Of a stretch of DNA of 64,000 nt, positions 18,617-39,026 are shown in pieces (position 1 is the stretch's first letter; every line of letters begins with the position of its first letter). Both the position numbers and the translations under genes were made by a program. A model generated the notes under the pieces. It saw only the letters and a list, made by a program, of their open reading frames with translations. It made no database searches and was not told where the DNA came from. The stretch spans positions 434,001 to 498,000 of the forward strand of contig NZ_NERY01000002.1 in NCBI RefSeq assembly GCF_003063375.1, in the 5' to 3' direction. The DNA comes from Limnohabitans sp. MMS-10A-178 (GTDB lineage Bacteria > Pseudomonadota > Gammaproteobacteria > Burkholderiales > Burkholderiaceae_C).

Positions 18617-18659
18617 TTCGACAAATCCTGAATATGATTCATAATTATTGATGCAAAAT

Positions 18660-18678: not shown

Positions 18679-18722
18679 CGGCAAAACGCCCACTTTAGGC
18701 CAATTTCAACGTTTTATCCACC

Positions 18723-20567: not shown

Positions 20568-20990
20568 ATGAACGAATCAACTATTTGGTGGCTCATTGCA
20601 GGCTCGCTTGTTGGCATAGAGCTTATGACTGGCACTTTCTACTTGCTTATGCTCGCCATTGGCGCCGCAGCAGGTGCCATCGCTGCCCACGCTCAGTTAG
20701 GTTTCACAACACAACTGATCACAGGGTCGGTGGTCGGTGGACTGGCCGTTATTTTGTGGCGCATTTATTCCTTGCAAAAATTGAAGTCTCATCCAGAAGA
20801 AATTCCTGCTCAGCACTTAGATGTGGGTGAAACCGTGGAAGTGCATGAATGGCTCAGCAACGGAACCGCACAAGTAAAGCACAGGGGCGCCAACTGGACG
20901 GCTATTTGTGCAGAGGGAGTTCCGCAAGAACTGGGTGTTTACCAAATTCAAAATATTCAAGGCAACACTTTGGTGCTGCACAAAAGTTAA
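20568..20990 (+). CDS. NfeD-family membrane protein
   Basis: A 140-residue protein with two or three hydrophobic segments in the first 70 residues (WWLIAGSLVGIELMTG, LLMLAIGAAAGAIAA, ITGSVVGGLAVILW), followed by a soluble OB-fold-like domain with a V-E-V-x-E-W strand pattern. It is a short NfeD without the protease domain. Such proteins work with SPFH proteins in membrane microdomains, and the SPFH gene is 30 nt downstream. Confidence 0.85.
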   Translation: MNESTIWWLIAGSLVGIELMTGTFYLLMLAIGAAAGAIAAHAQLGFTTQLITGSVVGGLAVILWRIYSLQKLKSHPEEIPAQHLDVGETVEVHEWLSNGTAQVKHRGANWTAICAEGVPQELGVYQIQNIQGNTLVLHKS

Positions 20991-21020
20991 GTCAACGTCA
21001 GCTACTTAGAAAGAAAAATC

Positions 21021-21935: not shown

Positions 21936-22014
21936 GCAAGCGCTCAAGGCTACATTTAACTTGAGCGAAGCCATTGTGGTATTTTACGAGACTTGTCTTG
22001 TAAGGTACCTCAAT

Positions 22015-22944
22015 ATGTCTCTGCCCTTGAACCTCATACGCCGCGCTTTGCTGATATGCGGAATAGGCCTGCTTGCCTTCTGTTCAGCCCATGCCCAGGG
22101 ACCTGTGCGTGTGGGGTCAAAGATAGATACCGAAGGCAAGTTACTTGGCAACATCATTGTGCTTGCGCTTGAAGCCAACGGCATCAAAACTGAAAACAAG
22201 TTATCGCTTGGCAACACCAAGATTGTTCGCACCGCCCTTCTTTCGGGTGAGATTGATCTCTACCCCGAATACACAGGCAACGGTGCTTTCATGCTGGGTG
22301 CTGAAAAAAATCAAGCGTGGAAGAGCTTGAGAGCAGGCTACGAATTGGCCAAAAAAATCGATTTTGAAAAAAATAAAATCGTATGGCTTGAACCTGCCAA
22401 TGCCAACAACACCTGGGCAATCGCTGTGCGCAAAGACCTCGCTACTGCCAACCAACTTCGCACCATGGAAGACTTAGGACGCCACATCACCAAGGGCGGT
22501 ACATTTAAATTGGCTGCATCGGCTGAGTTCATGGAGCGAACAGACGCCATGCCTTCATTCCAGGCTGCCTACGCATTTAAACTGCGTGCTGACCAAGCGC
22601 TTGTTTTGGCAGGCGGTGACACAGCAACCACAATCAAAGCTGCCGCAGAAAAAACATCAGGGGTGAACGCAGCCATGGCTTACGGTACCGACGGATCCTT
22701 GGCTGCTTTAGGTCTTATCGTTATGGAAGACCCAAAAGGTGTGCAGCCCGTGTATGCCCCAGCACCGTTGGTGCGTGAGGAAGTTCTCAAGCGTTATCCC
22801 GCTATTGCCACCATTTTGGCTCCCATCTTCAAATCCCTCGATACAACCACCCTGCAAATGCTGAATGCACGCATTCAACTGGAAGGCCAAGATCCACGCA
22901 AAGTGGCAACCGGCCATCTCCAAAGCAAGGGATTTCTGAAATAA
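22015..22944 (+). CDS. osmF: Osmoprotectant (glycine betaine-type) ABC transporter, substrate-binding protein
   Basis: The ATG at 22015, preceded by TAAGG, gives a 309-residue protein with a signal peptide (MSLPLNLIRRALLICGIG, cleavage after AHAQ region). The frame continues upstream to a TTG at 21961, but that would hide the signal. The mature protein is an OpuAC/QAT-type binding protein (GSKIDTEGKLLGNII, YPEYTGNGAF). It is the first gene of a four-gene transporter resembling E. coli yehZYXW. Whether betaine, choline or another quaternary amine is bound is not decided here. Confidence 0.85.
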   Translation: MSLPLNLIRRALLICGIGLLAFCSAHAQGPVRVGSKIDTEGKLLGNIIVLALEANGIKTENKLSLGNTKIVRTALLSGEIDLYPEYTGNGAFMLGAEKNQAWKSLRAGYELAKKIDFEKNKIVWLEPANANNTWAIAVRKDLATANQLRTMEDLGRHITKGGTFKLAASAEFMERTDAMPSFQAAYAFKLRADQALVLAGGDTATTIKAAAEKTSGVNAAMAYGTDGSLAALGLIVMEDPKGVQPVYAPAPLVREEVLKRYPAIATILAPIFKSLDTTTLQMLNARIQLEGQDPRKVATGHLQSKGFLK

Positions 22945-22952
22945 GCATCGCA

Positions 22953-24128
22953 ATGGGACTCTCGCTTGTCCATCGCTGCAATCCGGTGCTGGCGCTCTAT
23001 TTGCTACTAGCACTTGGTGCCGCGTACGGCTTGCCCTTTGTGCGAGTTGCGCCAAATCGACTTGTGTCTGGCGAGCCTGTTTTTTTAAGTGATGCCTTGT
23101 TGCATCTCAATGGTCAACTGATCGTTCCGCTGCTTTTGGCCCTATTCACTCTGCTGAGCGTGGCAGCTTTGCAACCCAGAAAGCGCATCACTCAAGTTTT
23201 GGTTTTTTTGGCAATGGCCGCTGCCCTTGCCTGCTTGTGGTTGCTAGCAGGCCACATTGCCAACAACGCAATTGAAACCCAAAATTCTTTTGCTCGCACA
23301 GCATTGGGCGCTGGATTCTGGGCGCTGGGGGCTTTGGCCTGGTTGATTGGCATTGATGCCGCGGATCGACTTCAATTAACAACACTCCCGCGCCTGCTTT
23401 TACAAATTGCGCTATTGCTGCCGCTATTACTTTCATTGAGTCAGGGTTTGAACTTGTCTATCGCGCAGGAATATGCCAATCACAGCGATGTTTTTGGGCC
23501 TGCCATTTTGCGTCATCTTCAAATTGTGATGCTGGCCGTCGCACCAGCCTTGGTCATTGGTTTGCTGCTGGCCTGGCGCATGTCCAAGAATAGAGAATTG
23601 CGTCAAGCAATTTTTCCAGTTCTCAATGTGCTTCAAACCATTCCATCTATTGCCCTGTTTGGCCTGCTCATGGCACCATTGGCTTGGATAGCTTTGCAAT
23701 GGCCAGCTTTAAGCCGCGCAGGCATTGGCGGTGTTGGCATTGCGCCGGCAGTGCTCGCCTTGCTGATGTATGCCTTGCTGCCCATTGCTCGCTCGGCGCT
23801 GGCTGGTTTAGAGCAAGTTCCTGCAGAGGCTGTTAATGCGGCCCGCGCTATGGGCATGTCATCGCGCCAGATATTGTGGGAAGTAGAGTTGCCACTGGCA
23901 CTGCCTGCACTTTTCATAGGATTGCGAACTGCAGTGGTACAAACCACAGGCCTAGCGGCAGTCTCTGCTCTCGTGGGTGCTGGTGGTTTGGGTCAAATTA
24001 TGTTTGACGGGCTCTTTAGTGCTGCCAACGAACTGGTCATACTGGGTGTGATCCCCATCGTGCTTCTGGCCATGTTGGCAGACACTGCATTTAAATTGCT
24101 GGGTTCCTTATTCTGGACAAGCCCATGA
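22953..24128 (+). CDS. yehY: Osmoprotectant ABC transporter permease (YehY-like)
   Basis: A 391-residue permease. The N-terminal half has several additional membrane segments, as in YehY. The C-terminal half is a BPD_transp_1 domain with the EAA loop AARAMGMSSRQILWEVELPL. It is 8 nt downstream of the binding-protein gene, and its stop overlaps the ATPase gene by 4 nt. It forms the membrane channel together with the second permease at 25059. Confidence 0.85.
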   Translation: MGLSLVHRCNPVLALYLLLALGAAYGLPFVRVAPNRLVSGEPVFLSDALLHLNGQLIVPLLLALFTLLSVAALQPRKRITQVLVFLAMAAALACLWLLAGHIANNAIETQNSFARTALGAGFWALGALAWLIGIDAADRLQLTTLPRLLLQIALLLPLLLSLSQGLNLSIAQEYANHSDVFGPAILRHLQIVMLAVAPALVIGLLLAWRMSKNRELRQAIFPVLNVLQTIPSIALFGLLMAPLAWIALQWPALSRAGIGGVGIAPAVLALLMYALLPIARSALAGLEQVPAEAVNAARAMGMSSRQILWEVELPLALPALFIGLRTAVVQTTGLAAVSALVGAGGLGQIMFDGLFSAANELVILGVIPIVLLAMLADTAFKLLGSLFWTSP

Positions 24129-25066
24129 TCATCAAGTTTCAAAATATTCGCAAGTCTTATGGTGCACAAGCAGCCATTGCAGACTTCAATTTAGAGATCC
24201 AAAAGGGCGAACTACTGGTACTGCTGGGACCCTCAGGTTCTGGCAAATCGACTATTCTCAAAATGATCAACCGCATGGTCAGCCATGATGAAGGCCAAAT
24301 TTTTTTCCAGGGCCAAGAAGTCAATAGCTTTAACGTGCAAGACCTGCGGCGTCGCATGGGATATGCTATTCAGTCAGTGGGTTTATTTCCACACAGAACT
24401 GTTGCTCAGAATATTGCCACTGTACCCAAGCTTTTGGAATGGGATTCCCAACGTGTGGAAGCGCGTGTCAATGAGTTACTAACATTGCTAGCAATGGATC
24501 CCACGCAATACGCCAATCGCTATCCGCACCAACTCTCGGGCGGACAGCAGCAACGGGTCGGCGTAGCGCGAGCACTGGCCGCCGATCCAGATGTGCTTCT
24601 CATGGACGAGCCCTTTGGCGCTCTCGACCCAGTAACGCGAGCCGCCTTGCAAGTGGCGCTCCAACAGATTCAGCAATCAACCGGTAAAACCATCCTGTTT
24701 GTCACCCACGACATCGATGAAGCTATGTTGCTGGCAACACGCATCGCGCTGCTGAATCAAGGGCGTATCGTGCAGCTAGGCACACCCCTTGAATTGCTGC
24801 AGCAACCTGCCAACGACTTTGTTGTCAATTTCTTGGGGCGCGCAGATTTGGGGCTGCAACAACTTTCATTTCGGTCCATTGCTCCCTATGTCATACCGAT
24901 TGAAGGCACGCCACCCACTCACGTCATCGCCCATTCAGCCACACTCAGAGAAGCCATTTCGTGTATGGCAACACTTCATGTGTCTGCGCTGTGCGTACTG
25001 AAAGAAGACGGCACACTGCTGGGGCAGGTGCGGGCCGCCGATTTGCTAGAGAACAATCATGTCTGA
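24125..25066 (+). CDS. yehX: Osmoprotectant ABC transporter ATP-binding protein (YehX-like)
   Basis: A 313-residue ABC ATPase. Walker [10 protein letters not shown] is near residue 38, the signature [15 protein letters not shown] and Walker [13 protein letters not shown] follow. The last 70 residues look like a single degenerate CBS motif, the part that senses ionic strength in OpuA-type transporters. It overlaps both permease genes (4 and 8 nt), so the operon is tightly coupled. Confidence 0.88.
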
Positions 25067-25850
25067 GTTGCTCGCTTATCCAGCTCAAGCGCCTGGCCGA
25101 GGTGCTAAGCGGCTGGGCTTGAGCTTGAGCTTGGGCGCACTTTTGCTGCTGGCTTATGGTTTGCCTTATTCTCAGCCGCTGTTTGCAGCTTTATTTCCCG
25201 ACCTAGCGCGTCCGGTTTATTTGCAAGAGCCAATGTCAGTGTTAATGTGGCAGCACATTGGGCTGGTGTTGGTGTCGAGTTCTATTGCTGTGATCATTGC
25301 AACAGTAGCAGCACTGGCCACCACGAGCAAAACGGGGCTCGCCTTCAAACCGGCGATGGAAATGCTGGCCGGTATGGGTCAAACTTTTCCGCCCGTGGCA
25401 GTGTTGGCAGTGGCGGTTCCAGCTGTTGGTTTTGGCGAGCTTCCTGCGCTCATTGCCTTGTCAATTTTTGGTGTTCTGCCAGTGCTTCAGGCTACTATGG
25501 CAGGACTGGCTTCAGTGCCACCTTCCGTGCTAGATTCAGCGCGCGCGATGGGCATGACGCCACGGCAAATATTGACTGAAGTTCAGATGCCATTGGCCCT
25601 TCCACTTTGGCTGGCTGGTGTGCGAACCTCCGTTGTCGTGAACATAGGCACTGCCGCCATTGCATCCACTGTGGGCGCCAAAACACTTGGCTTGCCCATC
25701 ATCATTGGTCTGTCTGGCTTTAATACAGCTTATGTTCTACAAGGTGCCATGATGGTGGGGCTGCTGGCCATTGCAGCCGACTTAGCGTTTGACGAATTAG
25801 CCCTCGCCCTGCATGGCTCAGCAAATTCAGGCGTTGACAATCAAGCGTGA
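25059..25850 (+). CDS. yehW: Osmoprotectant ABC transporter permease (YehW-like)
   Basis: A 263-residue inner-membrane permease with about six hydrophobic segments and the EAA loop [20 protein letters not shown]. It is the short partner of the longer permease at 22953. Its 3' end overlaps the convergent selD gene by 24 nt (25827-25850), so the two transcripts are complementary at their ends. Confidence 0.86.
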
Positions 25851-26879
25851 ATTTTGCGCTTCACCAATATGCCCCACAACGGCAGCGTCATGGAAGCCAT
25901 GCCGGTTAAAAATAGCCAGAACCTCAGGCACTGTATCTGGCGAACAAGTGACCAACAAGCCACCGCTTGTTTGAGGGTCGGACAAAAGAGCTTGGCATTC
26001 GGCCGGTAAGCCACTGTCAAGGCTAATCTCCTTGCCATAGCCATCCCAGTTTCGACCTGACGCGCCAGTCACATTGCCATCTTTAAACAAAACAGGCACA
26101 TTGGGCAACAAAGGCACATCAGCCCATTTGATGTAGGCCGTGAGCTTGGCACCTCGCGCAATTTCCAGGGCATGACCAGCCAAACCAAACCCTGTGACGT
26201 CTGTGAGTGCGTGTACGCCTTTTAATTCAGCCAACTCAGGACCAGGCGTGTTGAGCTTGGTGGTGTTTGAAATCATAGACTCATAGCCGGCGGCATCGAG
26301 AACTTCTTTTTTAAGCGCAGCTGACAAAACACCCACACCAATAGGCTTGCCTAGCACCATGACATCGCCAACGCGAGCGCCATCGTTTCGTTTAACGCGA
26401 TCAGGGTGAACCAATCCCAGTACAACCAAACCATAGATGGGCTCAACTGAATCAATGGTATGACCGCCGGCAATAGGAATACCTGCTGTGTTGCAGACCG
26501 AAGCACCGCCTGCCAGAATTTTTCCAATGGTTTCTGTTGACAATACATTGATTGGCATTCCTACCAAAGCCAATGCCAAGATGGGCTTTCCACCCATGGC
26601 ATAAACATCGCTAATGGCATTGGTAGCCGCAATACGCCCAAAATCATAAGGATCATCTACGATGGGCATGAAGAAGTCAGTGGTTGCAATCAAGGCTTGA
26701 TGATCGTTGAGCTTGTAAACAGCCGCGTCATCTGCAGTGGCAATACCGACCATCAATTCTGGTGGAATCGGCATTTGGAGTGTGCCTTTGAGAATTTCGG
26801 ACAAAACTGCAGGGGCAATTTTGCAACCACAGCCGCCGCCATGCGAGAGTGAGGTCAACCGGGGTTCAGACTGATTCAT
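25827..26879 (-). CDS. selD: Selenide, water dikinase (selenophosphate synthetase), SenC/SelD
   Basis: A 350-residue enzyme that makes selenophosphate from selenide and ATP. The N-terminal glycine-rich active-site loop reads [12 protein letters not shown]; the active site uses Cys, not selenocysteine. The following AIRM-type domains carry [21 protein letters not shown] chose the ATG at 26879; another in-frame ATG at 26897 is less like the family. It lies 48 nt after senB on the same strand. No selA, selB or selenoprotein gene is seen here, and the senB/senA/egtD context indicates the selenoneine-pathway role (SenC). Confidence 0.93.
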
Positions 26880-26927
26880 GGAATTTCCTTGATGCAAAAA
26901 ATAGGGGTCGCTTGAAGCCCCAAAGAC

Positions 26928-27971
26928 TCAAGCCAAAAGACGCGCCGCAATGGCGCTTTCTACAATTGTAAGCAAGGCTTTGCGTTCGTGCTCAGCTGAA
27001 AATAAAGGCGCGCGCTGAGCGCATTGGGCTTTTAACAAACTTGCAAAATGGGCGTCTTGGCGAAAACGAACAAGCATGTTGGCAAGGGCCGTGGCGTCCC
27101 CCACTGGAAACAACCCTGCATAGTCTTCGCCAAGCATCCCCACATTTCCAGCTATGCGCGATGCAATAACAGGAACCCCACTGCAAATAGCTTCCATGAT
27201 CACGTGCGCCCCACCCTCCATCACGCTGGTATGAACTAGCACGTGGGCAAGCTGAATTTGATGGCGAGTTTGGGGGTAGCTTAAGGCACCTTTAAACTGA
27301 TATTGGGGGTAAAGGGATGCGGTTTTTTCAGCCATATTTGCCAACGCTTGATCGTGCGCGGCACCAATGTGCTGAATTTGAATATCCCGATGCTTCGCTA
27401 ACAGTGCTGCAGCTTCAAACAAAGTGCGCGGCGATTTTTCCTCACGCAGATGGCCCACCATCACAACTCTTGTAGTACGCCTTGTTTTAGCCAAGGTCAA
27501 ACGGGATGTGGTTGACTGCAGAACCACCGATGTTTTGGCCTGGAGTGACTCCGGCAATTCCTGCAGCCCCATGGACTGCAACACGATCAGCCGTGAGGCA
27601 AACTGGAGGGATTGTTGAGCATTTTCGTCGTGCTTGATATCGCGGTACAAATCAGTACCCGTTAGCACCACCACCAAACCTTGGGAGCCATGCATTGCAT
27701 GCCAAGCTGCAATCGATGAATGACTGCGACGCGCATGCAATGCAATTAAAACCGTGTCTAGTTTTGAGCCGTCCCACTCACTAAGAAGGCGAACCCGAAA
27801 ATTCGAACTCAACAGCTGGCGATAACGCTTGGCTGTTTGCCAGTTACCGTTGTTGGCACTGGCAAGGGCTGGACTTACAATGACAACGGTTTGTTTGGCA
27901 GATTGGGGGCGAGTAACTTCTGATTTAAGCATCTTTTTTTGAAGTAACTTCGGACGAGTAGCTTGTTTCAT
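26928..27971 (-). CDS. senB: Glycosyltransferase, probable selenosugar synthase SenB
   Basis: About 347 residues, GT-B-type glycosyltransferase. The core starts TVVIVSPALASANNGNWQTA, and the C-terminal nucleotide-sugar half has EGGAHVIMEAICSGVPVIAS. In the described selenoneine pathway, SenB couples selenophosphate and a UDP-sugar to give a selenosugar. Position between selD/senC and senA supports this. The N-terminal 25 residues are Lys/Arg-rich and not obviously part of the fold; in-frame starts are TTG 27980, ATG 27971 (chosen) and ATG 27932. Only 40 nt separate it from the divergent senA. Confidence 0.85.
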   Translation of the reverse strand: MKQATRPKLLQKKMLKSEVTRPQSAKQTVVIVSPALASANNGNWQTAKRYRQLLSSNFRVRLLSEWDGSKLDTVLIALHARRSHSSIAAWHAMHGSQGLVVVLTGTDLYRDIKHDENAQQSLQFASRLIVLQSMGLQELPESLQAKTSVVLQSTTSRLTLAKTRRTTRVVMVGHLREEKSPRTLFEAAALLAKHRDIQIQHIGAAHDQALANMAEKTASLYPQYQFKGALSYPQTRHQIQLAHVLVHTSVMEGGAHVIMEAICSGVPVIASRIAGNVGMLGEDYAGLFPVGDATALANMLVRFRQDAHFASLLKAQCAQRAPLFSAEHERKALLTIVESAIAARLLA

Positions 27972-28011
27972 ATTCACCAACCAAGCATATCGAAAAGGAC
28001 AAAAGCAATCA

Positions 28012-29193
28012 ATGCGTCATGTAAATATCCTGACACTGTCAAAGGCTCTTGCACACCTTCGTGAGCAGACACTCAACTCATTTGATTGCTATTTGAGCAA
28101 TAACATGCTCACCGTCCCCCACAAAGCAGGGCTCAATCCGCCGGTCTGGGAATTAGGGCATGTGGCATGGTTTCAAGAATATTGGATTGGTCGCAATTTA
28201 CAACGCTCCAAAGGTCTAGCCTGCGATGTTTCGCTGGCTCGCAACGCATCGATTCTCTCCGAAGCCGATGTGTGGTTCGACAGTGCCAAGGTTGCTCACG
28301 CAACGCGCTGGGATTTAAAGCTCTTAACGCCACAACAATGCATTGCATACGCCAATGAGACTTTGGCTCAAACACTTGTCCTTTTGCAACAAGAAAATGA
28401 CAACAGCCCCGCGCTTTATTTCTATTGGCTGGTGCTGCAGCATGAGGCCATGCATTTAGAGGCAAGTGCCTATATGGCGCAATCATTGGGTCTGCCCTTC
28501 AAAGCACATTGGCAGCAAAGGGCTGAACATCATGAGAAGCTTCAAACAACACAAATAAGCCCACAACAAAGTCAATCGAATGAAAACACTGCACACGTGC
28601 CATCACAAGTTTGGAAGCTAGGTTCTCAGATTTCAAATCTTGATGTGAATGAAAATTCATTTTGCTTTGACAACGAATTGAAAGAAAAGAGTTGCACGAT
28701 TCAAGCCTTTGATATTGCATTGCAGCCTGTCAATTGGTCGCAGTATTTAGAATTTACCAATGCCACGGGGTATAGGCTTCCAAAATACATTCGAAAAACA
28801 AACACTGATTTTGAAACAGAGGTTTTTGGTAAGTGGCTGCCTTTGAACAAGCATACACCAGCAGTGCACCTGTCGTGGCACGATGTTCAAGCTTACTGTG
28901 CTTGGGCCCAGTGCCGTTTACCTACAGAAGCAGAGTGGGATTGCGCGGCCAAAACAATCGAAGGCTTTCAGTGGGGTGACGTTTGGGAATGGACTCAAGA
29001 CACATTCACACCCTATGACGGCTTTGTGGCACACCCCTACACCGAGTATTCAGAGCCTTGGTTTGGAACACACAAAGTATTAAGAGGCGCCTCTCATACC
29101 ACTCACTCGTTCTTGCGGCATGTCAATTATCGAAATTTCTTTACGCCAGAACGCGACGATATTTATTCAGGCTTTAGAACCTGCGCTCTTTGA
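28012..29193 (+). CDS. senA: EgtB-like nonheme iron enzyme, probable selenoneine synthase SenA
   Basis: A 393-residue protein with an N-terminal DinB-like domain and a C-terminal FGE/sulfatase-modifying-factor domain, the EgtB layout. The predicted iron ligands are His50 (WELGHVAWFQ), His144 and His148 (QHEAMHLEA). The C-terminal domain has RLPTEAEWD and GDVWEWTQD and ends in GFRTCAL. SenA joins hercynine to a selenosugar through a C-Se bond. EgtB itself, the sulfur enzyme, is the main alternative, but selD and senB next door favour SenA. AAAAGGAC provides the ribosome-binding site. Confidence 0.85.
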   Translation: MRHVNILTLSKALAHLREQTLNSFDCYLSNNMLTVPHKAGLNPPVWELGHVAWFQEYWIGRNLQRSKGLACDVSLARNASILSEADVWFDSAKVAHATRWDLKLLTPQQCIAYANETLAQTLVLLQQENDNSPALYFYWLVLQHEAMHLEASAYMAQSLGLPFKAHWQQRAEHHEKLQTTQISPQQSQSNENTAHVPSQVWKLGSQISNLDVNENSFCFDNELKEKSCTIQAFDIALQPVNWSQYLEFTNATGYRLPKYIRKTNTDFETEVFGKWLPLNKHTPAVHLSWHDVQAYCAWAQCRLPTEAEWDCAAKTIEGFQWGDVWEWTQDTFTPYDGFVAHPYTEYSEPWFGTHKVLRGASHTTHSFLRHVNYRNFFTPERDDIYSGFRTCAL

Positions 29194-29209
29194 TCGATAT
29201 CGATCAAAG
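29188..29209. repeat. Perfect 22-bp palindrome at the senA/egtD junction
   Basis: CTTTGATCGAT (29188-29198) is followed directly by its exact reverse complement ATCGATCAAAG (29199-29209), with no spacer. It covers the senA stop codon and lies 10 nt from the convergent egtD stop. No T-tract follows on either strand, so it is either a factor-assisted bidirectional terminator hairpin or a protein-binding site. Confidence 0.75.
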
Positions 29210-29218
29210 TCCTTCTGG

Positions 29219-30196
29219 CTAACTGGCCCAAAACAAAGCGTATTGCGACTTTTGATCTGTCCAATGCTGAACGCTTGTAAATCCCGACTTGTGCAATTGA
29301 GCCGTGAAATTGTCAATCGACCATTTGTAAGAATTTTCAGTGTGGATGGTTTCGCCTTGTTTGAAAAAGCGTTGCTGGCCATGCCACTGAACAGTTAGAT
29401 TTCGTTTGGCTTGCAAATGCATTTCGATGCGCGACTCTTGCACATTAAAAAGTGCAATGTGCTGCCAATCGCGCACATCAAAATCTGAACCCAACAATTG
29501 ATTGGCTCTTCTGAGCACGTTCAAATTAAAGGCAGCAGTGACGCCTAAGTCATCTGCATAGGCTCGCTCTAGTGAGCCAGTGTCTTTCACCAAGTCAATG
29601 CCAATGATGAGTCCTGAACCCGGCTGACCTTTTTTGCAAAGAACGGCAACTCTTTCCAAAAAATACAAAGCCTCTGTGGGATTGAAGTTTCCCAAACTGG
29701 AACCAAGGTACAAAGCTAGCAGCGGCTCTTGCGTCAGTTGTTGTTGAAGTTTTTCTGGAAATTGAAGGGAATTTGAAAAATCCATGCCCACACCGACCAC
29801 ATCGACTTCAGGGTATTTGGCCTGTAAATCTTTTAAGTGGTTAGAGAGATAGTCAACAGAAATATCAACCGCAATATAAGTTGAGGGCATGGAGTGAGAA
29901 AACAAATTAACTGCTTTCTCGCAATTGCCGGAACCAAGGTCAACCCATGTGGCCTGCTTGGGAAATTGCGCATGAATGTCGTGCGCTTGTTGCGTGAAAA
30001 TCTGCAACTCGGTTCGGGTTGGGTAGTATTCAGGCAGCAAGGTAATTGCGTCAAACAAGACCGAACCCATCTCATCGTAAAAGTACTTGGGGGACAAGGT
30101 GGCCTGAGGGCAAAGCAAGCCTTGGCTCAGTTCTTGAACATTGGCATCTTTGTTTTCTTTGTGTATGTCAAAAAACAGGGGCTCTTTGAATTGCAT
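29219..30196 (-). CDS. egtD: L-histidine N-alpha-methyltransferase EgtD (hercynine synthase)
   Basis: A 325-residue SAM-dependent methyltransferase of the EgtD family. LPEYYPTRTE carries the conserved substrate-binding tyrosine, and WVDLGSGNCEKA is the SAM loop. It trimethylates histidine to hercynine, the precursor of both ergothioneine and selenoneine. It follows the ABC transporter genes on the same strand (24 nt after the second permease) and is convergent with senA. Confidence 0.93.
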   Translation of the reverse strand: MQFKEPLFFDIHKENKDANVQELSQGLLCPQATLSPKYFYDEMGSVLFDAITLLPEYYPTRTELQIFTQQAHDIHAQFPKQATWVDLGSGNCEKAVNLFSHSMPSTYIAVDISVDYLSNHLKDLQAKYPEVDVVGVGMDFSNSLQFPEKLQQQLTQEPLLALYLGSSLGNFNPTEALYFLERVAVLCKKGQPGSGLIIGIDLVKDTGSLERAYADDLGVTAAFNLNVLRRANQLLGSDFDVRDWQHIALFNVQESRIEMHLQAKRNLTVQWHGQQRFFKQGETIHTENSYKWSIDNFTAQLHKSGFTSVQHWTDQKSQYALFWAS

Positions 30197-30220
30197 CAGT
30201 CTCTCTTTGAATGTGTTGGA

Positions 30221-31084
30221 TTAACGGTTTAGCCATCGCCTCAGACCAAAGCTCAGCGCATCGACACATGCCACCATGAGCAGCATTGCACCCAAAATTG
30301 TCGCGGTCTTGTTCATGAGAAACAAACCCATATTGAATGACAACATCTGTCCCAAGCCGCCAGCACCCACAACCCCCAAAACGGCGGCAGCTCGAATGTT
30401 GTTTTCCCAGCGGTACAAGGTATAACTCATTAACTGCGGCAAGACCTGTGGCAAAGTGGCGTAAGCAAATACGCGCAACGGCCCCACCCCTTGCGTGCGT
30501 AACGCATCACCAGGACCGGTGGGTATGTTTTCCATAGCCTCTGCAAACAGCCGTCCCAACACACCGCTTGTGTGAAGGGCCAGAGCCAGGGTGCCTGCCA
30601 TGGGTCCTAGGCCTGCAGAAATTAACAAGAGTGCCGCCCAAACCAATTCGGGAATGGCTCGCAAGGCGTTCAGCAGCCAATGGGTGGGGCTGCGCAGCCA
30701 AGCTGAGTCTTGTTGAGAGATTCGGCTTGCGGGCACAGCTAAGGCCAAGCCCAAAACTGCAGCCATGATGGTGCCAAGCGCTGACATGGCCAGTGTTTCC
30801 CATGCTGCCAACACAACCTTATTGACAAACTTAGGCGATAGGTCGGGCGGAAAAAACTCCGCCATAAACCGGTACATGCTGCGGCCAGCCTCTAGTGAAG
30901 CAAAGGCCGCCCAATCTAGATTCAAAGACACAAAGCTTGCAACAACCAGCAGCAGCAAAGCGACGCTGAACCAGCAAGCTCTGCATCTGGCATTGAACAA
31001 GGGTGGCGGCAGTTTGTAGGGTGGGTTGGCCGCCTCTCGGTAAAAGGATTTTGACAAAAGCTCGACTGAGGTCTTGGGTTTCAC
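30221..31084 (-). CDS. PhnE-like ABC transporter permease (second), selenium locus
   Basis: A 287-residue permease with about six membrane segments and a C-terminal RWENNIRAAAVLGVVGAGGLGQ loop typical of phosphonate-type (PhnE) permeases. The true start is the GTG at 31084, which overlaps the upstream permease stop by 4 nt (GTGA). The frame continues open to 31498 but there it lies inside the first permease and encodes nothing permease-like. It probably pairs with the permease at 31081 as a heterodimeric channel. Confidence 0.85.
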   Translation of the reverse strand: MKPKTSVELLSKSFYREAANPPYKLPPPLFNARCRACWFSVALLLLVVASFVSLNLDWAAFASLEAGRSMYRFMAEFFPPDLSPKFVNKVVLAAWETLAMSALGTIMAAVLGLALAVPASRISQQDSAWLRSPTHWLLNALRAIPELVWAALLLISAGLGPMAGTLALALHTSGVLGRLFAEAMENIPTGPGDALRTQGVGPLRVFAYATLPQVLPQLMSYTLYRWENNIRAAAVLGVVGAGGLGQMLSFNMGLFLMNKTATILGAMLLMVACVDALSFGLRRWLNR

Positions 31085-31941
31085 GACAAAGCCCTCCTCA
31101 GCCAGGCACTCACACTGTCGGCCAATGCCACCAGCACAATGAAAATCAGGAGCAAAGTGGCAACTTCGCCGCCATTGAACATCTTCATTGAATTGTCTAA
31201 CTGCTGACCCAATCCTCCTGCACCCACAAAACCCAATACGACCGATGACCGAATAGCGCATTCCCAACGGTACACCGTGTAGGAAGCCAACTCGGCAGCA
31301 TGAGTGGGAAGCAAGGCGTAAACAAAGGCTTGCAGACGTCCACTGCCGTTGCGCATCAGGGTGTGGGTGGCATGGCTCTCGCCACTTTCCAAGATTTCGG
31401 CATAAACTTTTCCAAGCATGCCGCCATATGTGAGTGCAATGGCAAGAACACCCGCCGTTGGACCTAGGCCTACAACGCGCACAAAGACCAGTGCCCATAC
31501 TAGTTCAGGAATGCTGCGCAACAAGATCAAAGTGGCGCGCACGCACCAGCGCAGCACAGCCGGCCAGCGATCCATTCGACCCGTCAACGCAGACAGCGAC
31601 AACACACGAGTCGCCATCAAGCTCATGGGTATAGCCAACATCAAAGCCAGAGTGACGCCTGCGGTTGCCATGGCAACAGTACGCCAAGTTTCTTTGACAA
31701 CCATTTGCATGAATTCAGCGTTGTAGACCAAGGGCCAAAAGCTGGCCAAAAAATCGCGACTTACTTTTAGATTTTCAGGCTCCCACAACACCCATGGGCG
31801 AAATTCGGTGGCCACACCCAGTGGCCAGAGAAGCAACAGGGCAAAAGTCAGCCAAAAAATTCTTGAGGAAAAATCTGGATCGCGAAGCTTGCCTGCTATT
31901 GCTAGATTGGCTTGGGGCAAGTTGGTAGCAGACATATTCAC
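31081..31941 (-). CDS. PhnE-like ABC transporter permease (first), selenium locus
   Basis: A 286-residue inner-membrane permease of the phosphonate/phosphite type, with hydrophobic segments through the chain and the loop YRWECAIRSSVVLGFVGAGGLGQQ near the C-terminus. It is 25 nt downstream of the ATPase gene. Two different permeases in one transporter operon are known in PhnE systems. The predicted cargo is a small oxyanion; see the binding protein at 32837. Confidence 0.85.
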   Translation of the reverse strand: MNMSATNLPQANLAIAGKLRDPDFSSRIFWLTFALLLLWPLGVATEFRPWVLWEPENLKVSRDFLASFWPLVYNAEFMQMVVKETWRTVAMATAGVTLALMLAIPMSLMATRVLSLSALTGRMDRWPAVLRWCVRATLILLRSIPELVWALVFVRVVGLGPTAGVLAIALTYGGMLGKVYAEILESGESHATHTLMRNGSGRLQAFVYALLPTHAAELASYTVYRWECAIRSSVVLGFVGAGGLGQQLDNSMKMFNGGEVATLLLIFIVLVALADSVSAWLRRALS

Positions 31942-31966
31942 AGGCCAGTAAAAAAACCTGCTGGTC

Positions 31967-32821
31967 TTAGCGGCAGTGCATCACGACAGGCGCAGGCACA
32001 AGCGAGTTTTGATCAGACTCAGCCAGTAGGGCATCGCGCCCAAACTCTTGCGCCTGTTCGTCATCTTGCTCTTGCTGTTCATACAAGTTTGCAAGCCGTT
32101 CTCGGGTAACCTCTGCAGATGGCAAATCAAAAACCATCTGGCCTTTAAGCAAACCAATGATGCGATCGAAGTGTGTCAGGGCCATGTCGACCTGATGCAA
32201 GGTGGCAACCATGGTGATTTGTCGCTCACGCGCAAGCCTCACCAATGCCGTCATGGCGATGCGAGCGCGCATTGGATCAAGCGCAGACAAAGGCTCGTCA
32301 ATCAACCACAAACTGGCGGGCGATAGCAAAGCACGGGCCAATCCAACACGTTGCCGCTCTCCACCAGAAAGGCGGTCTACCCTGTCGAACAACTTGTCAC
32401 TCAGGTCAAAGTGGCTGAGAGCTTCGTAGGCTGCTGGAATGTCTGCTGGATAAAACAGCGAGCGCAAGCTGGCAGCCAAGCTCATGGCTGGCAATCGACC
32501 TGCTAAAACCGAGGTCACAACTCGTTGACGCGGTGGCAAGGGCGGCACTTGAGGCGCTAGAAACAATCGACCGCGCAAGAGACGAAGCTCATGGCTTGAC
32601 AAACGCCAGGGTGATTGCCCCCCCAAAAGCAATTCACCACCGGTGGGTTGCTGCGCACAAGAAAGCACTTGCAGCAAGCTAGTTTTGCCGGCACCAGAGG
32701 GGCCGATGATGGCCACCTGCTCACCGGCGCTGAGTTGAAGGCTTATCCCTTGCAAAGCCGGAGGTGCATTGGCCGCTGCAGATGGGTGGCGAGCCTGAAG
32801 GCCCTGAAGCTCAATGTTCAC
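31967..32821 (-). CDS. PhnC-like ABC transporter ATP-binding protein, selenium locus
   Basis: A 284-residue ABC ATPase with Walker A GPSGAGKTS near residue 40, signature LSGGERQRVGLARAL, Walker B LWLIDEPLSALDP and the H-loop in VATLHQVDMAL. The pattern is that of PhnC. The C-terminal 35 residues are acidic and variable. It lies 15 nt downstream of the binding-protein gene and powers uptake through the two permeases that follow. Confidence 0.88.
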   Translation of the reverse strand: MNIELQGLQARHPSAAANAPPALQGISLQLSAGEQVAIIGPSGAGKTSLLQVLSCAQQPTGGELLLGGQSPWRLSSHELRLLRGRLFLAPQVPPLPPRQRVVTSVLAGRLPAMSLAASLRSLFYPADIPAAYEALSHFDLSDKLFDRVDRLSGGERQRVGLARALLSPASLWLIDEPLSALDPMRARIAMTALVRLARERQITMVATLHQVDMALTHFDRIIGLLKGQMVFDLPSAEVTRERLANLYEQQEQDDEQAQEFGRDALLAESDQNSLVPAPVVMHCR

Positions 32822-32836
32822 GGGTGAAATACCCGT

Positions 32837-33697
32837 TTATTGGAGTAAGCCCGCGCTGCGAGCAGCAGACTCTAAACCTTTGTAATTTTCAGGCGAGGTA
32901 GACACATAGCGGGTGGCGCGATTGAGCTTCAGTATTTCGGCATGCTCTGGGTTGGCAGGGTTCAGTGCGAGCAAGGCCGCCTTGATTTTTTCGCGTTGTT
33001 GAATGGGCATGTCAGCATGCACAGACCAGTTGTAATTGAAGTAGCTTGGTGTGGTGAAAAACACATTCACATCTTGAGTGTTGACCTTGTTTTCGGTCAC
33101 AAATTTTTGCCAAACTGTAATGTCTAGCGCAGCCGCATCAACTTTGCCACTCACCACGGAAGCAATGGTGGCATCATGCGCACCGCTGTAAGCAACGCGC
33201 TTGAAATCTTTTTCAGGATCGATGTTGGCTTGCAACAAAAAGCTTCTTGGCATGAGATGGCCAGAGGTGCTGCTTTGGGAGCCGAAAGATATCTGCTTGC
33301 CCTTCATGTCTGCCAAACTCTTGATACCAGAGTTGGTTTTGGCAATGAACACCGACTGAAACTTGGTGTCTTCCTCGCGCTGCGCCAAAGGCACAATTTT
33401 GCCACCGGAACGAATGCTGGCCTGAACAAAAGTAAAGCCACCAAACCAAACCAGGTCGACTTTTTTGTTAACCAGCGACTCCACGGCAGCGGGGTAGTCG
33501 GTCACTGGGGTGAATTGAACCTTCATGCCCAGTTGCTTTTCCAAGTAAGTGGCAAGCGGGGTGAACTTGCGAATCTGCTCGGTAGCCGCTTCCTCGGGAA
33601 TGGTAGTCACCCTGAAGGTGGTCTGAGCTTGTACGTGCGTCATGGCTGAAATGGCCAAAGTAAGGGCGCACACAAAGGATGAAAGGAGTTTGTTCAT
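32837..33697 (-). CDS. PhnD-like periplasmic binding protein, putative selenium oxyanion (selenate) ABC transporter
   Basis: A 286-residue protein with signal peptide MNKLLSSFVCALTLAISAM (cleavage near VQA) and a PhnD-type binding fold: FRVTTIPEEAATEQIRKF, TPVTDYPAAVESL, DLVWFGGFTFVQA, SFGSQSSTSGHLMPR. From memory, one PhnD clade has been named putative selenate-binding protein because it keeps occurring beside selD and other selenium genes, and these motifs and the neighbourhood fit it. Phosphonate, phosphite or another oxyanion remains possible. It heads the transporter-egtD gene string. Confidence 0.75.
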   Translation of the reverse strand: MNKLLSSFVCALTLAISAMTHVQAQTTFRVTTIPEEAATEQIRKFTPLATYLEKQLGMKVQFTPVTDYPAAVESLVNKKVDLVWFGGFTFVQASIRSGGKIVPLAQREEDTKFQSVFIAKTNSGIKSLADMKGKQISFGSQSSTSGHLMPRSFLLQANIDPEKDFKRVAYSGAHDATIASVVSGKVDAAALDITVWQKFVTENKVNTQDVNVFFTTPSYFNYNWSVHADMPIQQREKIKAALLALNPANPEHAEILKLNRATRYVSTSPENYKGLESAARSAGLLQ

Positions 33698-33801
33698 GTC
33701 GAGAAATTCGCTGTTAGGAGTTAAAAATCAATATGTATCCGAGACTTGGGTCATTTTAGGTGCAATGCCAACCAAGCAAATTGTTTTGTAAAAAGTGATT
33801 T

Positions 33802-34317
33802 CTAAGCAGCTTGTAAATTTAAAAAATTCGACAGGTTAAAAACAGAGTTGGGGGCTACAGGTATCAGTGCTGCAGGCAGTGGTTTGAAGTTCATGGCCAT
33901 AGACTTGCTTGGCTTTGAAGAAGCCGATTCAGGCATTTCACTCAATAAATCGACAAGCAGGTAATTTTGAAGAAATTCTTTTTCAAACTGATGCGCCTGT
34001 TCAGAAACCAGATTGGTTAAAAGCCACTCCGGTGAAGATTGGGTTTTGTGGGTGCACGCATTGGAAAAACCAAAGCCACTGATGACGTCCCAGACTGAGA
34101 GGTCATGCAAGGATGCAACCAGTTTGTAGCCACCACCAGGCCCACGAGTTGCCTGCACTAAACCTAACTCTCTGGCATCTTTCAAAATGCCTTCGATGTA
34201 AGACAAAGAAACACCTGTAGCAGTAGCGAGGGAGTCCGCCGTAGTGGTTCTGTGGCTTGGGGTGCTGGCGATGTGCGCAATGACTTTTAAACCCAGGGAA
34301 GCACGTTTACTGATCAT
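33802..34317 (-). CDS. Rrf2-family regulator without an Fe-S ligand set
   Basis: A 171-residue winged-helix Rrf2 protein. The DNA-binding half matches IscR ([30 protein letters not shown]). In the ligand region only one cysteine remains (Cys88, NACTHKT), so it cannot hold an IscR-type three-cysteine cluster as a monomer. Its C-terminal tail APNSVFNLSN resembles that of IscR in this genome ([10 protein letters not shown]). It is the first gene upstream of the PhnD-like gene on the same strand, 104 nt away, and is a good candidate regulator of the selenium locus. Confidence 0.82.
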   Translation of the reverse strand: MISKRASLGLKVIAHIASTPSHRTTTADSLATATGVSLSYIEGILKDARELGLVQATRGPGGGYKLVASLHDLSVWDVISGFGFSNACTHKTQSSPEWLLTNLVSEQAHQFEKEFLQNYLLVDLLSEMPESASSKPSKSMAMNFKPLPAALIPVAPNSVFNLSNFLNLQAA

Positions 34318-34424
34318 TTGAACTCCTATTCAAGACAAACGGAATTTATCATGCATAACTTTAAAATTACTCAATTATGTGAAATAATTCAATAAATCTA
34401 CTCAAAATCAATTCAAAAACAAAT
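34318..34424. promoter_or_regulatory. AT-rich divergent promoter region, rrf2/merR
   Basis: A 107-nt gap, very rich in A and T, between two divergent regulator genes. Several TATAAT-like hexamers are possible, so no single promoter can be chosen. It probably holds both promoters and regulator-binding sites. Confidence 0.4.
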
Positions 34425-35414
34425 ATGGATCACAAAAAATTAAGCAATCTGCATAAGATTGGGGCTGTTTCAAGCCTTAGCGGTGTTCCAACCCCTACCC
34501 TGCGCGTTTGGGAACAGCGGTATCAAACTTTTCAGCCTCAAAAAACCGAAAGTAAGCATCGCCTGTTCACAGACGACGATGTTTTGAAGGCCACCTTGCT
34601 AAAACGACTCACAGAACAAGGTCATGGCATCAGCAATATTGCAAATCTTTCCACCACCGACCTGAACAAATTACTGCAACAACAACAAGAAACAAATCAA
34701 AGAAAAGCCAGAACAGGACTTCAGGGACAGTCTGCTTCTGTGGCGGTCATTGGACTGACTCTTGCCGCAAGAATTGAATCCAAAAAATTCACATTGAGTT
34801 TTAACAATCAAGCGATTCGCATCACCGACATCTTTAGCAACCTGACTGAAGCGCTCGCAGCGACCTTTCAAACAAAAACACAAATTTTGCTCATTCACAC
34901 TAACTCTTTGGATGCAGCAGTTCAGGTTGACATTCATCGCTTGGCAAAGTTAAACAACAGCTTGCAAGTCATTGTTCTCTACAACTACGGACAAGAACCC
35001 GTCATTGATTCGATGAAACGCAGCGGAATGATTGTTCGACGGGAACCTATCAGCGATTCAGACTTAGCCGACCTCATCAACTCTCTGCGAGTTGTAGATA
35101 CCCAATCAAGCGCAGCTCATTTGCCATCAGGTACCGTTATTCCTGCTAGGAAGTACGACGATATTGAACTCATGCGCGTTGCGGGCATATCGAGTGATAT
35201 CTTGTGTGAATGTCCGCGTCATGTTGCAGAAATCATCACGCAACTTGCAAGCTTTGAACAGTACAGCCGAGATTGCTTGAACAAATCAACAGAAGACGCG
35301 CACCTTCATTCCTACCTCAGTACGGTCTCAGGTTCTGCCAGGGCACTATTTGAATCTGCACTTGAAATGGTGGCCAAACACGAAGGCATCGATTTGCGAG
35401 CGTTGTCAAAGTAA
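34425..35414 (+). CDS. MerR-family regulator with a degenerate cobalamin-type domain, probable light-response regulator
   Basis: A 329-residue protein with an N-terminal MerR helix-turn-helix (IGAVSSLSGVPTPTLRVWEQRYQTFQPQ, arginine-rich wing as in CarH/LitR). The middle region resembles the Rossmann part of B12-binding regulators, but the DxHxxG motif is reduced to DIHRLA with no glycine. The C-terminal ILCECPRHVAEIITQL...ARALFESALEMV region is a helical domain of unknown function. It lies 27 nt upstream of the photolyase gene, the usual partner of light-responsive MerR proteins. Confidence 0.78.
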   Translation: MDHKKLSNLHKIGAVSSLSGVPTPTLRVWEQRYQTFQPQKTESKHRLFTDDDVLKATLLKRLTEQGHGISNIANLSTTDLNKLLQQQQETNQRKARTGLQGQSASVAVIGLTLAARIESKKFTLSFNNQAIRITDIFSNLTEALAATFQTKTQILLIHTNSLDAAVQVDIHRLAKLNNSLQVIVLYNYGQEPVIDSMKRSGMIVRREPISDSDLADLINSLRVVDTQSSAAHLPSGTVIPARKYDDIELMRVAGISSDILCECPRHVAEIITQLASFEQYSRDCLNKSTEDAHLHSYLSTVSGSARALFESALEMVAKHEGIDLRALSK

Positions 35415-35441
35415 TTGCGCTCCCTTTAGCAAGATCCTCAC

Positions 35442-36962
35442 ATGAGCTACGAACTGGTTTGGTTCAAACGCGACTTGCGCTGGGAGGATCATGCCGCTTT
35501 GGCGCAAGCGTCTCGAAAGGGCCCTGTGCGATGCATCTATGTCATCGAGCCCGATCTTTGGCTGCAGCCCGATTCAGCTCTTCAACATTTTGAGTTTGTC
35601 AGGGAGTCATTACAGGCTTTGGACAGGCACTTGAGAGCTCAGGGCGGTTGCATTGAAATCTTCACGGGCGAGCTGCCCGATGTCCTGCAACAAATTTGGC
35701 AAGACGCACCCTTTGCAAATCTTTATTCGCATGAAGAAACTGGCAATGCCTTTACCTATGCACGCGATTTGAAAGTAGCTTCGTGGTGTCAGTCACAAGC
35801 AGTGACTTGGCATGAGTTCCCTCAATTTGGCGTTGTGCGAGGTCTGAAGGATCGCAATCTGTGGCAAAGCGCATGGGAGCGGCATATGTCGGCTCCCATC
35901 TGTACGGCAGTGAAATTGCGGTTCTGGCAAGCGCCACCCCACGCTGCCATGGTCATGCAAGCACCACCCCACTTGAAACACAATCCGCCAAGACGGCAAC
36001 GTGGCGGACGACCCTTGGCCAAGGCAACCCTCGATAGTTTTATCAATGCTCGCAGTATTGGCTATCGTGGCGGCATTTCTTCGCCATTGTCTGCGCCAGA
36101 TGCGTGCTCAAGGCTTTCCGCTTACTTGTCTTGGGGTTGCATCAGTATGCGAGAAGTGGTGCAGCACACTCGAGCGCAATTGGCCTCCTTGCCACCGCAA
36201 GCCAGCCGACACAAAGCGGGCTTAACAGCATTTTTAAGCCGACTCTATTGGCATTGTCACTTCATTCAAAAACTCGAAAGTGAACCCAGAATTGAGTGGA
36301 ACAACATGCACAGAGGCTATGACATGCTTCGTGAAAATGAGTTCAATCAGGCGCACTTTGAAGCATTGAAAGCGGCACAAACAGGCTGGCCAATGGTGGA
36401 TGCCTGCGTGGTCATGTTGCGTGAAACCGGATGGCTGAATTTCCGCATGCGGGCCATGTTGGTTTCTGTTGCAGCCTATCCTCTTTGGCTCCATTGGCGG
36501 CCCGTCGGTGAATGGCTTGCAACGCAATTTTTGGACTATGAACCTGGCATTCATTGGAGTCAATTGCAAATGCAATCTGGCACTACGGGCATCAACACCA
36601 CTCGGGTGTACAACCCCATCAAGCAAGCCCAAGATCACGATCCACAAGGCAAGTTCGTCAGGCGCTGGCTTCCTGCCATGCGTAGCGTTCCTGATACTTG
36701 GCTGTTTGAGCCTTGGATGATGCCTCAACGCGAGTTAACAGATGCAACTCAAATGCCACAAATTGTGCCGCCCTTGGTTGAACTTGCGGCTGCAACCAAA
36801 ACTGCCAAACATCGCGTTCATGAGAGACGTCGTGACCCTGAGGTTAAGGCGGGGAAGAAGGCTGTGATTGACAAGCATGCTTCACGTCAGGGGTTTCGCT
36901 CATCTAAAAAAACAGCCATCGAGCAAAGCTCTCACGCCAAACAAATGGGATTTGATTTTTAG
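35442..36962 (+). CDS. Cryptochrome/DNA photolyase family protein
   Basis: A 506-residue flavoprotein. The N-terminal antenna domain begins ELVWFKRDLRWEDHAAL; the FAD domain has YWHCHFIQ, TGWPMVDACV, GWLNFRMRAM, TGINTTRVYNP and a C-terminal Lys/Arg-rich tail of about 70 residues. In the loop around 365-380 (DYEPGIHWSQLQMQSG) the usual W-x-W/Y by the flavin appears as Q-L-Q, so the standard electron-transfer tryptophan seems absent. It may repair cyclobutane dimers or act as a photoreceptor with the upstream MerR gene. The exact subfamily is not decided. Confidence 0.85.
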   Translation: MSYELVWFKRDLRWEDHAALAQASRKGPVRCIYVIEPDLWLQPDSALQHFEFVRESLQALDRHLRAQGGCIEIFTGELPDVLQQIWQDAPFANLYSHEETGNAFTYARDLKVASWCQSQAVTWHEFPQFGVVRGLKDRNLWQSAWERHMSAPICTAVKLRFWQAPPHAAMVMQAPPHLKHNPPRRQRGGRPLAKATLDSFINARSIGYRGGISSPLSAPDACSRLSAYLSWGCISMREVVQHTRAQLASLPPQASRHKAGLTAFLSRLYWHCHFIQKLESEPRIEWNNMHRGYDMLRENEFNQAHFEALKAAQTGWPMVDACVVMLRETGWLNFRMRAMLVSVAAYPLWLHWRPVGEWLATQFLDYEPGIHWSQLQMQSGTTGINTTRVYNPIKQAQDHDPQGKFVRRWLPAMRSVPDTWLFEPWMMPQRELTDATQMPQIVPPLVELAAATKTAKHRVHERRRDPEVKAGKKAVIDKHASRQGFRSSKKTAIEQSSHAKQMGFDF

Positions 36963-36976
36963 AATGGCCCATGAAA

Positions 36977-36996
36977 AACCCCGCCGAAGCGGGGTT
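36977..36996 (-). terminator. Rho-independent terminator of phaCAB
   Basis: AACCCCGC-CGAA-GCGGGGTT forms a perfect 8-bp stem with a tetraloop. On the minus strand it is followed by a run of T (GGGGTTTTTCAT), so it ends the phaB transcript, and it may also stop the photolyase transcript arriving from the other side. Confidence 0.85.
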
Positions 36997-37029
36997 CTCT
37001 GAGTATGGACCCAATGCCTCAAAAGGCAA

Positions 37030-37767
37030 TTAGCCCATGTGCAAACCGCCATTGACGGAGAAGTCTGCACCAGTGGCATAGCCACCTTCTTCAGACGCCA
37101 ACCAAGCAATGATGGAAGCAATTTCGCTGGGCTCACCCAAGCGCTTGACAGGTACAGTGGCCACAATTTTTTCGAGCACATCAGGGCGAATGGCTTTGAC
37201 CATGTCGGTACCAATGTAGCCAGGGCTGACAGTGTTCACAGTCACGCCTTTGGTGGCCAACTCTTGAGCCAATGCCATGGAGAAACCATGCATGCCAGCT
37301 TTGGCTGCAGAGTAGTTGGTTTGACCGGCTTGACCTTTTGCTCCGTTCACAGAGGAAATATTCACAATTCGGCCCCAGCCTTTTTCTACCATGTCGGCCA
37401 CCACTTGCTTGGTAACGTTGAACATGGAATTGAGGTTGGTCTCAATCACAGCGTCCCAATCTTCGCGTGACATTTTCAAAAACATGCGGTCTTTGGTAAT
37501 GCCAGCGTTGTTGACCAACAGGTCGATGGTGCCGTGCTCCGCCTTGGCCTTGGTAAAGGCTTCCACTGTTGAGTTCCAATCGCCCACATTGCCCACGGAA
37601 GCATAGAACGTGAAACCCAAAGCTTTTTGCTCGTCGAGCCACTTGGTGAAATCGCGTGTTGGGCCGCAACCGGCAATCACCTTGAAACCCTCCTTGTGAA
37701 GACGCTGGCAAATAGCGGTACCAATGCCGCCCATACCTCCTGTGACGTATGCTACTTTTTGACTCAT
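37030..37767 (-). CDS. phaB: Acetoacetyl-CoA reductase (NADPH)
   Basis: A 245-residue short-chain dehydrogenase. It reduces acetoacetyl-CoA to (R)-3-hydroxybutyryl-CoA, the monomer for PHB. The cofactor loop is VTGGMGGIGTAIC, the catalytic Ser-Tyr-Lys set is in NISSVNGAKGQAGQTNYSAAKAG, and NNAG follows the usual pattern. It is the last gene of phaC-phaA-phaB, 42 nt after phaA and before a strong terminator. Confidence 0.95.
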   Translation of the reverse strand: MSQKVAYVTGGMGGIGTAICQRLHKEGFKVIAGCGPTRDFTKWLDEQKALGFTFYASVGNVGDWNSTVEAFTKAKAEHGTIDLLVNNAGITKDRMFLKMSREDWDAVIETNLNSMFNVTKQVVADMVEKGWGRIVNISSVNGAKGQAGQTNYSAAKAGMHGFSMALAQELATKGVTVNTVSPGYIGTDMVKAIRPDVLEKIVATVPVKRLGEPSEIASIIAWLASEEGGYATGADFSVNGGLHMG

Positions 37768-37809
37768 GATGTTGTCTCCTATGTTGAAAATTTTGACTGT
37801 CTGAAAATA

Positions 37810-38988: not shown

Positions 38989-39026
38989 TTGTCTTCCTTT
39001 GTTAAACGCAATTTAAATTGTTGAAA

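Follow-up and report, generated by a model that had tools for sequence, protein, structure and literature searches.

A 64,000-nucleotide stretch of the genome of Limnohabitans sp. MMS-10A-178 (the window) is likely to carry a selenoneine cassette that, in this freshwater bacterium, is joined to an importer of inorganic selenium oxyanions. How bacteria specifically take up trace selenium is, to our knowledge, poorly defined. We scored the window proteins against NCBIfam models, with their curated cut-offs, and against Pfam. The scores confirmed all nine genes that had been named from the DNA letters alone (the sequence-only reading), at the coordinates listed below. The source genome carries the handle G000; other G-numbers denote genomes and L-numbers denote loci.

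25827..26879, minus strand: selD/senC, stand-alone selenophosphate synthetase of the Cys type (NF002098, 538 bits, cut-off 299; TIGR00476, 420 bits)
26928..27980, minus strand: senB, selenosugar synthase (TIGR04348, 419 bits, cut-off 300)
28012..29193, plus strand: senA, selenoneine synthase (NF041186, 431 bits, cut-off 420; EgtB model TIGR03440, 186 bits, cut-off 360)
29219..30196, minus strand: egtD, L-histidine N-alpha-methyltransferase, predicted to supply hercynine (TIGR03438, 349 bits, cut-off 290.9)
30221..31084, minus strand: PhnE-type permease 2, adjoining egtD (TIGR01097, 255 bits on 30221-31027, cut-off 216.7)
31081..31941, minus strand: PhnE-type permease 1 (TIGR01097, 200 bits, slightly below the cut-off of 216.7)
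31967..32821, minus strand: PhnC-type importer ATPase (best family TIGR02315, 194 bits, below the cut-off of 266; PF00005)
32837..33697, minus strand: importer substrate-binding protein (TIGR04553, 358 bits, cut-off 250; nearest solved chains 7s6g, 5lq5 and PtxB)
33802..34317, minus strand: Rrf2 regulator gene (Rrf2 superfamily TIGR00738, 64 bits, below the cut-off of 73.3; PF02082, 63.6 bits, cut-off 30)

The SenA, SenB and SelD proteins form a selenoneine set, as supported by family scores, phylogeny and conserved residues, and the predicted product is selenoneine. The best solved chains for the window SenA were two SenA entries (E-values of 1.4e-100 and 2.1e-100), compared to 6.7e-45 and 2.9e-42 for solved OvsA and 9.6e-20 or weaker for EgtB. 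The 50 SenA and 8 EgtB proteins separated with a support of 100 in a quick maximum-likelihood tree (58 sequences), with the window protein on the SenA side. Furthermore, all 18 diagnostic positions carry the SenA residue in the window protein. A position counted as diagnostic when one residue was fixed in 90% or more of 51 SenA sequences (window included) and a different one in 85% or more of the 8 EgtB sequences. No EgtB scored above the cut-off anywhere in G000. SenB matched solved SenB chains with E-values of 1.8e-103 to 5.1e-100. It also retains N20, T23, H58, D86, Q131, R155, K158, E231, H235 and E239 and has Glu at V157, in a hand tally on the alignment of residues tested in Variovorax SenB according to the available part of PMC10891094. 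Thus, SenA (by tree) and SenB (by family score and residues) did not fall with the sulfur EgtB enzymes or ordinary glycosyltransferases, the outcome that would have counted against the selenoneine set proposed in the sequence-only reading.

The gene arrangement links this set to the importer. On the minus strand the order is Rrf2, binding protein, ATPase, permease 1, permease 2 and egtD. From the binding protein to egtD, five genes share a strand with spacings of 15, 25, -4 and 24 bases and therefore look like one operon. The overlap is a 4-base GTGA shared by the permease 1 stop and a probable GTG start of permease 2 at 31084, read from the sequence. The PhnDCEE-like transporter does, as first described, run straight into egtD. 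The plus-strand senA is convergent with egtD (25 bases apart) and divergent from senB. The true start of senB probably lies inside the annotated frame, with the family match starting at residue 32, and selD follows senB after 48 bases. Promoter and terminator predictions gave counts that did not rise above those of shuffled sequences beyond noise (5 vs. 6.9; 16 vs. 12.7), and Rfam had no match within window positions 20000-38000.

In the route that we propose, the importer (binding protein, ATPase and two permeases) would bring in selenite or selenate, and cell thiols or other reductases would reduce the oxyanion to selenide. SelD would convert the selenide to selenophosphate, SenB would transfer selenium onto a uridine diphosphate (UDP)-sugar and EgtD would convert histidine to hercynine. 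SenA would then join hercynine and the selenosugar, and selenoneine would be released. The same SelD would also serve SelU, the maker of 2-selenouridine in tRNA. The predicted enzyme steps rest on family membership and on the published work on SenA, SenB and SenC of Variovorax, while we infer the importer cargo, the reduction step and co-expression.

The selenium economy of the genome bears on such a route. The SelD motif reads GGGCGCK, confirming the Cys active site noted earlier, and the window copy is the one SelD above the cut-off in G000 (420.5 bits; next match, 57.4). SelA, first noted as lacking in the neighborhood, was not found in the whole G000 genome or in any of the 25 genomes searched (24 with senA-like matches plus G349, whose match is EgtB); neither SelB nor tRNA-Sec was part of this genome-wide search. 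SelA scored above the cut-off in 1 of the 14 members of the control set for this search. SelU, which the sequence-only reading did not mention, was present in G000 (C2:341541-342461) and, like SelD above its cut-off, in 25 of 25 genomes, so the same SelD should supply selenophosphate for 2-selenouridine in tRNA as well. Hence, the proposal that selenium flows to a small molecule rather than to selenoproteins agrees with the lack of SelA but has to be widened to include tRNA selenation via SelU as a predicted second user of SelD.

We surveyed 300 genomes of the order, with no correction for kinship in the co-occurrence odds ratios and p values, and found SenA above the cut-off in 65, TIGR04553 in 66 and SenB in 87. 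SenA and TIGR04553 were found together in 32 genomes, SenA alone in 33, TIGR04553 alone in 34 and neither in 201 (odds ratio of 5.7, p = 2.9e-8). The association of TIGR04553 with SenB was similar (36 genomes, odds ratio of 4.3, p = 9.7e-7), and SenA and SenB occurred together in 60 genomes (odds ratio of 92). In some genomes the genes also lie close together. In at least 14 of the 66 genomes, from 8 families, TIGR04553 is no more than 20 kb away from senA, senB or selD (G000, G003, G049, G058, G076, G102, G113, G166, G171, G179, G269, G275, G280 and G298; counted by hand from the listings). This is a lower bound because SelD positions were known for 34 genomes and a few others and because many assemblies are fragmented. 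If random closeness is assumed to be 1 to 3%, the chance of at least 14 linked genomes is 5e-15 to 8e-9. Among them, G058, G166 and G171 have the binding-protein gene divergently adjacent to selD and no senA or senB above the cut-off in the genome.

Within the genus, SenA was above the cut-off in 21 of the 60 genomes sampled. We read 23 other senA loci, 20 of them above the cut-off and three below it (G307, partial G353 and partial G337); L090 was excluded, its match being EgtB. egtD was present at 22 of the 23 loci and the binding protein at 19, or 20 if the partial importer at the contig end of L087 is counted; contig ends truncate L089 and L152, and the stretch read at L147 has no importer. 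egtD comes after the importer in the same orientation in the window, L087, L088, L166 and L182, whereas egtD and the binding protein are on opposite strands at the 17 other genus loci that have both. The gene-order check thus bears out the company of egtD and a selenium-labelled importer with the sen genes, a neighborhood that recurs in relatives. The suggestion that joint uptake and methylation are special to this locus was overstated, as the combination is found at most of the genus senA loci read.

Some sen clusters also hold ergothioneine genes. At L123, L125 and L129 a true EgtB gene is clustered with senA, senB and selD, so a single hercynine supply may serve the synthesis of both ergothioneine and selenoneine there. 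At L127 and L128 the importer, egtD, EgtB, selD and senB stand together, and an above-cut-off SenA is found elsewhere in the genome (L116 and L115).

TIGR04553 is named for a putative selenate ATP-binding cassette (ABC) transporter substrate-binding protein, and the window protein is well above its curated cut-off (358 vs. 250 bits). However, "selenate" in this hypoth_equivalog name denotes a putative cargo. The window protein shares its fold family and ligand residues with phosphite importers, including Pm_PhnD (5lq5), 7s6g and PtxB (5o2j). The Pm_PhnD ligand residues given in the available part of PMC5700983 (Y46, S126, T127, S128 and H158), together with the capping Y206, are conserved in 43 of 43 family sequences and correspond to Y68, S143, T144, S145, H174 and Y222 of the window protein. 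For PtxB, the same part of that paper gives binding at 0.17 uM for phosphite and at 46.8 uM for phosphate. By analogy, the invariant capping tyrosine favours three-oxygen, phosphite-shaped ligands, which would include selenite.

Other positions differ from Pm_PhnD in some or all of the family sequences. The equivalents of Pm_PhnD D13/N176/D205 read E/D/N in 23 of the 43 sequences, among them the window protein (E35/D192/N221), D/N/D in 19 and D/S/D in 1. Furthermore, E36 and N223 are fixed in all 43, where Pm_PhnD has Q and H. The E/D/N change in the window's clade affects together three positions that in Pm_PhnD hold the ligand or the capping tyrosine, and it may mark a retuned pocket. In the available part of PMC5700983, the D205 carboxylate of Pm_PhnD holds the protonated ligand; its removal by the change to N221 might shift the preference towards a fully deprotonated oxyanion, for instance selenate. 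In the tree, the 23 E/D/N sequences make up the clade of the window protein and do not count as independent changes. In addition, D/N/D proteins likewise adjoin selD or sen genes (e.g., L127, L134 and L144), so the selenium link does not depend on the E/D/N switch. The phosphite-type pocket thus makes selenite, on residue comparison, as plausible a cargo as selenate.

The most serious alternative is that the sen genes make selenoneine while the importer carries phosphite or phosphonate and is merely a frequent neighbor, a reading that we regard as unlikely but far from negligible. Several observations support it and weigh against selenium uptake. The nearest solved relatives of the binding protein are phosphite and phosphonate binding proteins, and the retention of phosphite-type residues, capping tyrosine included, makes the sequence compatible with either cargo. 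Of the 66 TIGR04553 genomes, 27 have neither senA nor senB above the cut-off, although a few have weaker SenB-like matches, and none of the 10 proteins tested near sen-less copies belongs to a selenium family. SelD was above the cut-off in 29 of the 34 genomes with TIGR04553 but without senA, compared to 21 of 34 controls hand-picked from low handle numbers rather than at random (p = 0.053). The five exceptions, which show that TIGR04553 is not confined to genomes with a recognizable SelD, are four multi-contig assemblies and the single-contig G205, whose TIGR04553 copy scores low (282 bits). We therefore set aside as weak the co-occurrence argument for a selenium-only importer. What speaks against a phosphorus cargo is gene position: close linkage to sen genes or selD recurs in 8 families, with three cases beside selD alone, and the importer is a near-constant companion of senA in the genus. 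Our literature search found no paper on a TIGR04553 importer in sen clusters, which is weak evidence of absence.

Selenium-oxyanion uptake remains our preferred reading of the importer, and we extend it tentatively to the family. It is possible, if somewhat doubtful, that TIGR04553 proteins are dedicated high-affinity selenium-oxyanion importers derived from phosphite importers and repeatedly placed beside selD and sen genes, that their cargo is selenite (pyramidal and phosphite-shaped) rather than selenate, and that the whole route from uptake to metabolite moves as one removable block.

Two further features of the window bear on the limits of such a block:

21961-25850, plus strand: OsmF/Yeh-type betaine-family ABC transporter (binding protein, OsmF equivalog, 455 bits, cut-off 400)
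21936..33799, strand not applicable: stretch of 11.9 kb with the OsmF/Yeh-type, sen and importer genes, missing from L184 between aligned flanks (blastn)

The last OsmF/Yeh-type gene and the 3' end of selD have 24 bases in common. One possibility is that this transporter, which the sequence-only reading did not mention, is the real partner of the sen genes and moves hercynine, betaine or selenoneine. The transporter adjoins selD in the window, L166 and L182, its genes are within the same stretch that L184 lacks, and betaine-like products would suit the family. We nonetheless find this partnership improbable. The binding protein matches the OsmF equivalog, the transporter stands beside a MerR gene without sen genes at L190 and L191, and no such transporter adjoins the cassette at L087, a locus of the same type as the window.

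L184 belongs to a Comamonadaceae metagenome-assembled genome whose Rrf2 protein is 80% identical to that of the window. In a blastn comparison with window positions 18001-40000, positions 18001-21935 and 33800-39998 aligned to this locus at 82-85%, and about 0.5 kb replaced the intervening 21936-33799; sen genes were not searched for elsewhere in the L184 genome. This empty site is compatible with gain or loss of the stretch alike.

The retention of Rrf2 at L184 also bears on the claim that the cassette holds its own dedicated regulator, which did not survive comparison and which we now consider improbable as well. In its favour, the Rrf2 gene precedes the binding-protein gene by 104 bases in the same orientation in the window, and L182 and L183 share this order. 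However, Rrf2 copies of at least 60% identity were found in 9 of the 60 genus genomes, of which 4 had a senA match and 5 did not, and a divergent MerR gene adjoins Rrf2 in 8 of the 9. Three of the five senA-less genomes are incomplete (G316, G329 and G303; 66-77% complete). Among the 23 other genus senA loci, L088 alone had an Rrf2 match and the remaining 22, four of them cut by contig ends, had none. Rrf2 is thus neither restricted to sen genes nor constant with them. Furthermore, Rrf2 and the binding protein are about 4 kb apart at L187, with three other frames in between. We judge Rrf2 to be a resident neighbor at the flank rather than part of the cassette, although it could still affect the importer operon by read-through or binding.

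The region around Rrf2 holds other features. A block of sequence upstream of the binding-protein gene (window 33698-33801, minus strand), TTGRCATTGCACYTAAAATGAMCC, is common to the window, L182 and L183 and is a possible promoter or operator. The frames that lie between Rrf2 and the importer at L187 (6143-9751) encode a protein with a Trans_reg_C domain, a TPR protein and a HupE/UreJ-type membrane protein. Divergent from Rrf2 in the window (34425-36962, plus strand) are a MerR-type regulator and then a photolyase/cryptochrome-family gene. The MerR-Rrf2 pair, which is widespread in the genus, could be light-related.

The window type of the cassette differs from that of its relatives. The window proteins share 79-91% identity with those of other genus sen loci for the binding protein, 54-57% for SenB, 48-51% for EgtD and 41-44% for SenA. 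This contrast between the importer and the sen proteins suggested a chimera with a foreign sen set, an idea that was considered and rejected: common descent, with window-type and genus rows held together, was not refuted for EgtD (p-AU of 0.534) or SenA (0.532), and the SenB tree already groups them (support of 79). In addition, senA diverges fast within the window type itself (72-73% identity to L166 and L087). Only SelD is clearly distinct in type: it stands alone in the window type and is fused to TIGR03169, a pyridine-nucleotide oxidoreductase, in relatives. The SelD match lies inside an open frame of 774-820 amino acids in 17 other genomes, and the frame at L149 (5720-8158) is a TIGR03169-SelD fusion; the TIGR03169 N-terminal domain was not above the cut-off in G000, G307, G353, G355 or G349.

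Additional genes interrupt some of the related loci. For example, TRAP transporter genes and a taurine-dioxygenase-like gene lie between senA and egtD at L149 (12470-16248), as at some genus loci. A three-gene set separates senB from senA at L156 (2750-8465) and L158 (2816-8531). Its large member is a CusA/CzcA-type heavy-metal efflux pump in L158, and the set perhaps serves selenium or metal export.

Finally, we consider it very improbable that SenA is EgtB- or OvsA-like and makes ergothioneine or ovoselenol instead of selenoneine: the protein is only 11 bits above the NF041186 cut-off (431 vs. 420), the close relatives G307 and partial G353 fall below it and the model also gives EgtB proteins 349-405 bits, but the EgtB score (186 bits against a cut-off of 360), the position in the tree, the 18 diagnostic residues and the far greater distance to OvsA than to SenA all oppose this, and the adjoining egtD points to hercynine as the substrate.

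The sen pathway has been published and the selenium label of TIGR04553 was already known; the genome survey, the empty site at L184 and the phosphite-type pocket that would suit selenite as well as selenate are new here. Selenoneine production by SenA and SenB is stated as not shown in vivo in the available part of PMC11448449. As genes for putative selenium uptake adjoin those for hercynine supply and selenoneine synthesis, the locus offers a single genetic target for questions of selenium uptake and of selenoneine production in vivo. Compared to EgtB of ergothioneine synthesis, the window SenA is alike in the histidines H50, H144 and H148 and in overall fold family but belongs to a separate clade and differs at the 18 diagnostic positions. 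The closest described system is the sen cluster of Variovorax paradoxus, with which the window has the SenA, SenB and SelD/SenC families in common. As far as the available parts of the reports extend (PMC9814287; also PMC10702425 and PMC10891094), that cluster is described as three genes (SenA/SenB/SenC), whereas here egtD and a four-gene ABC importer adjoin them.

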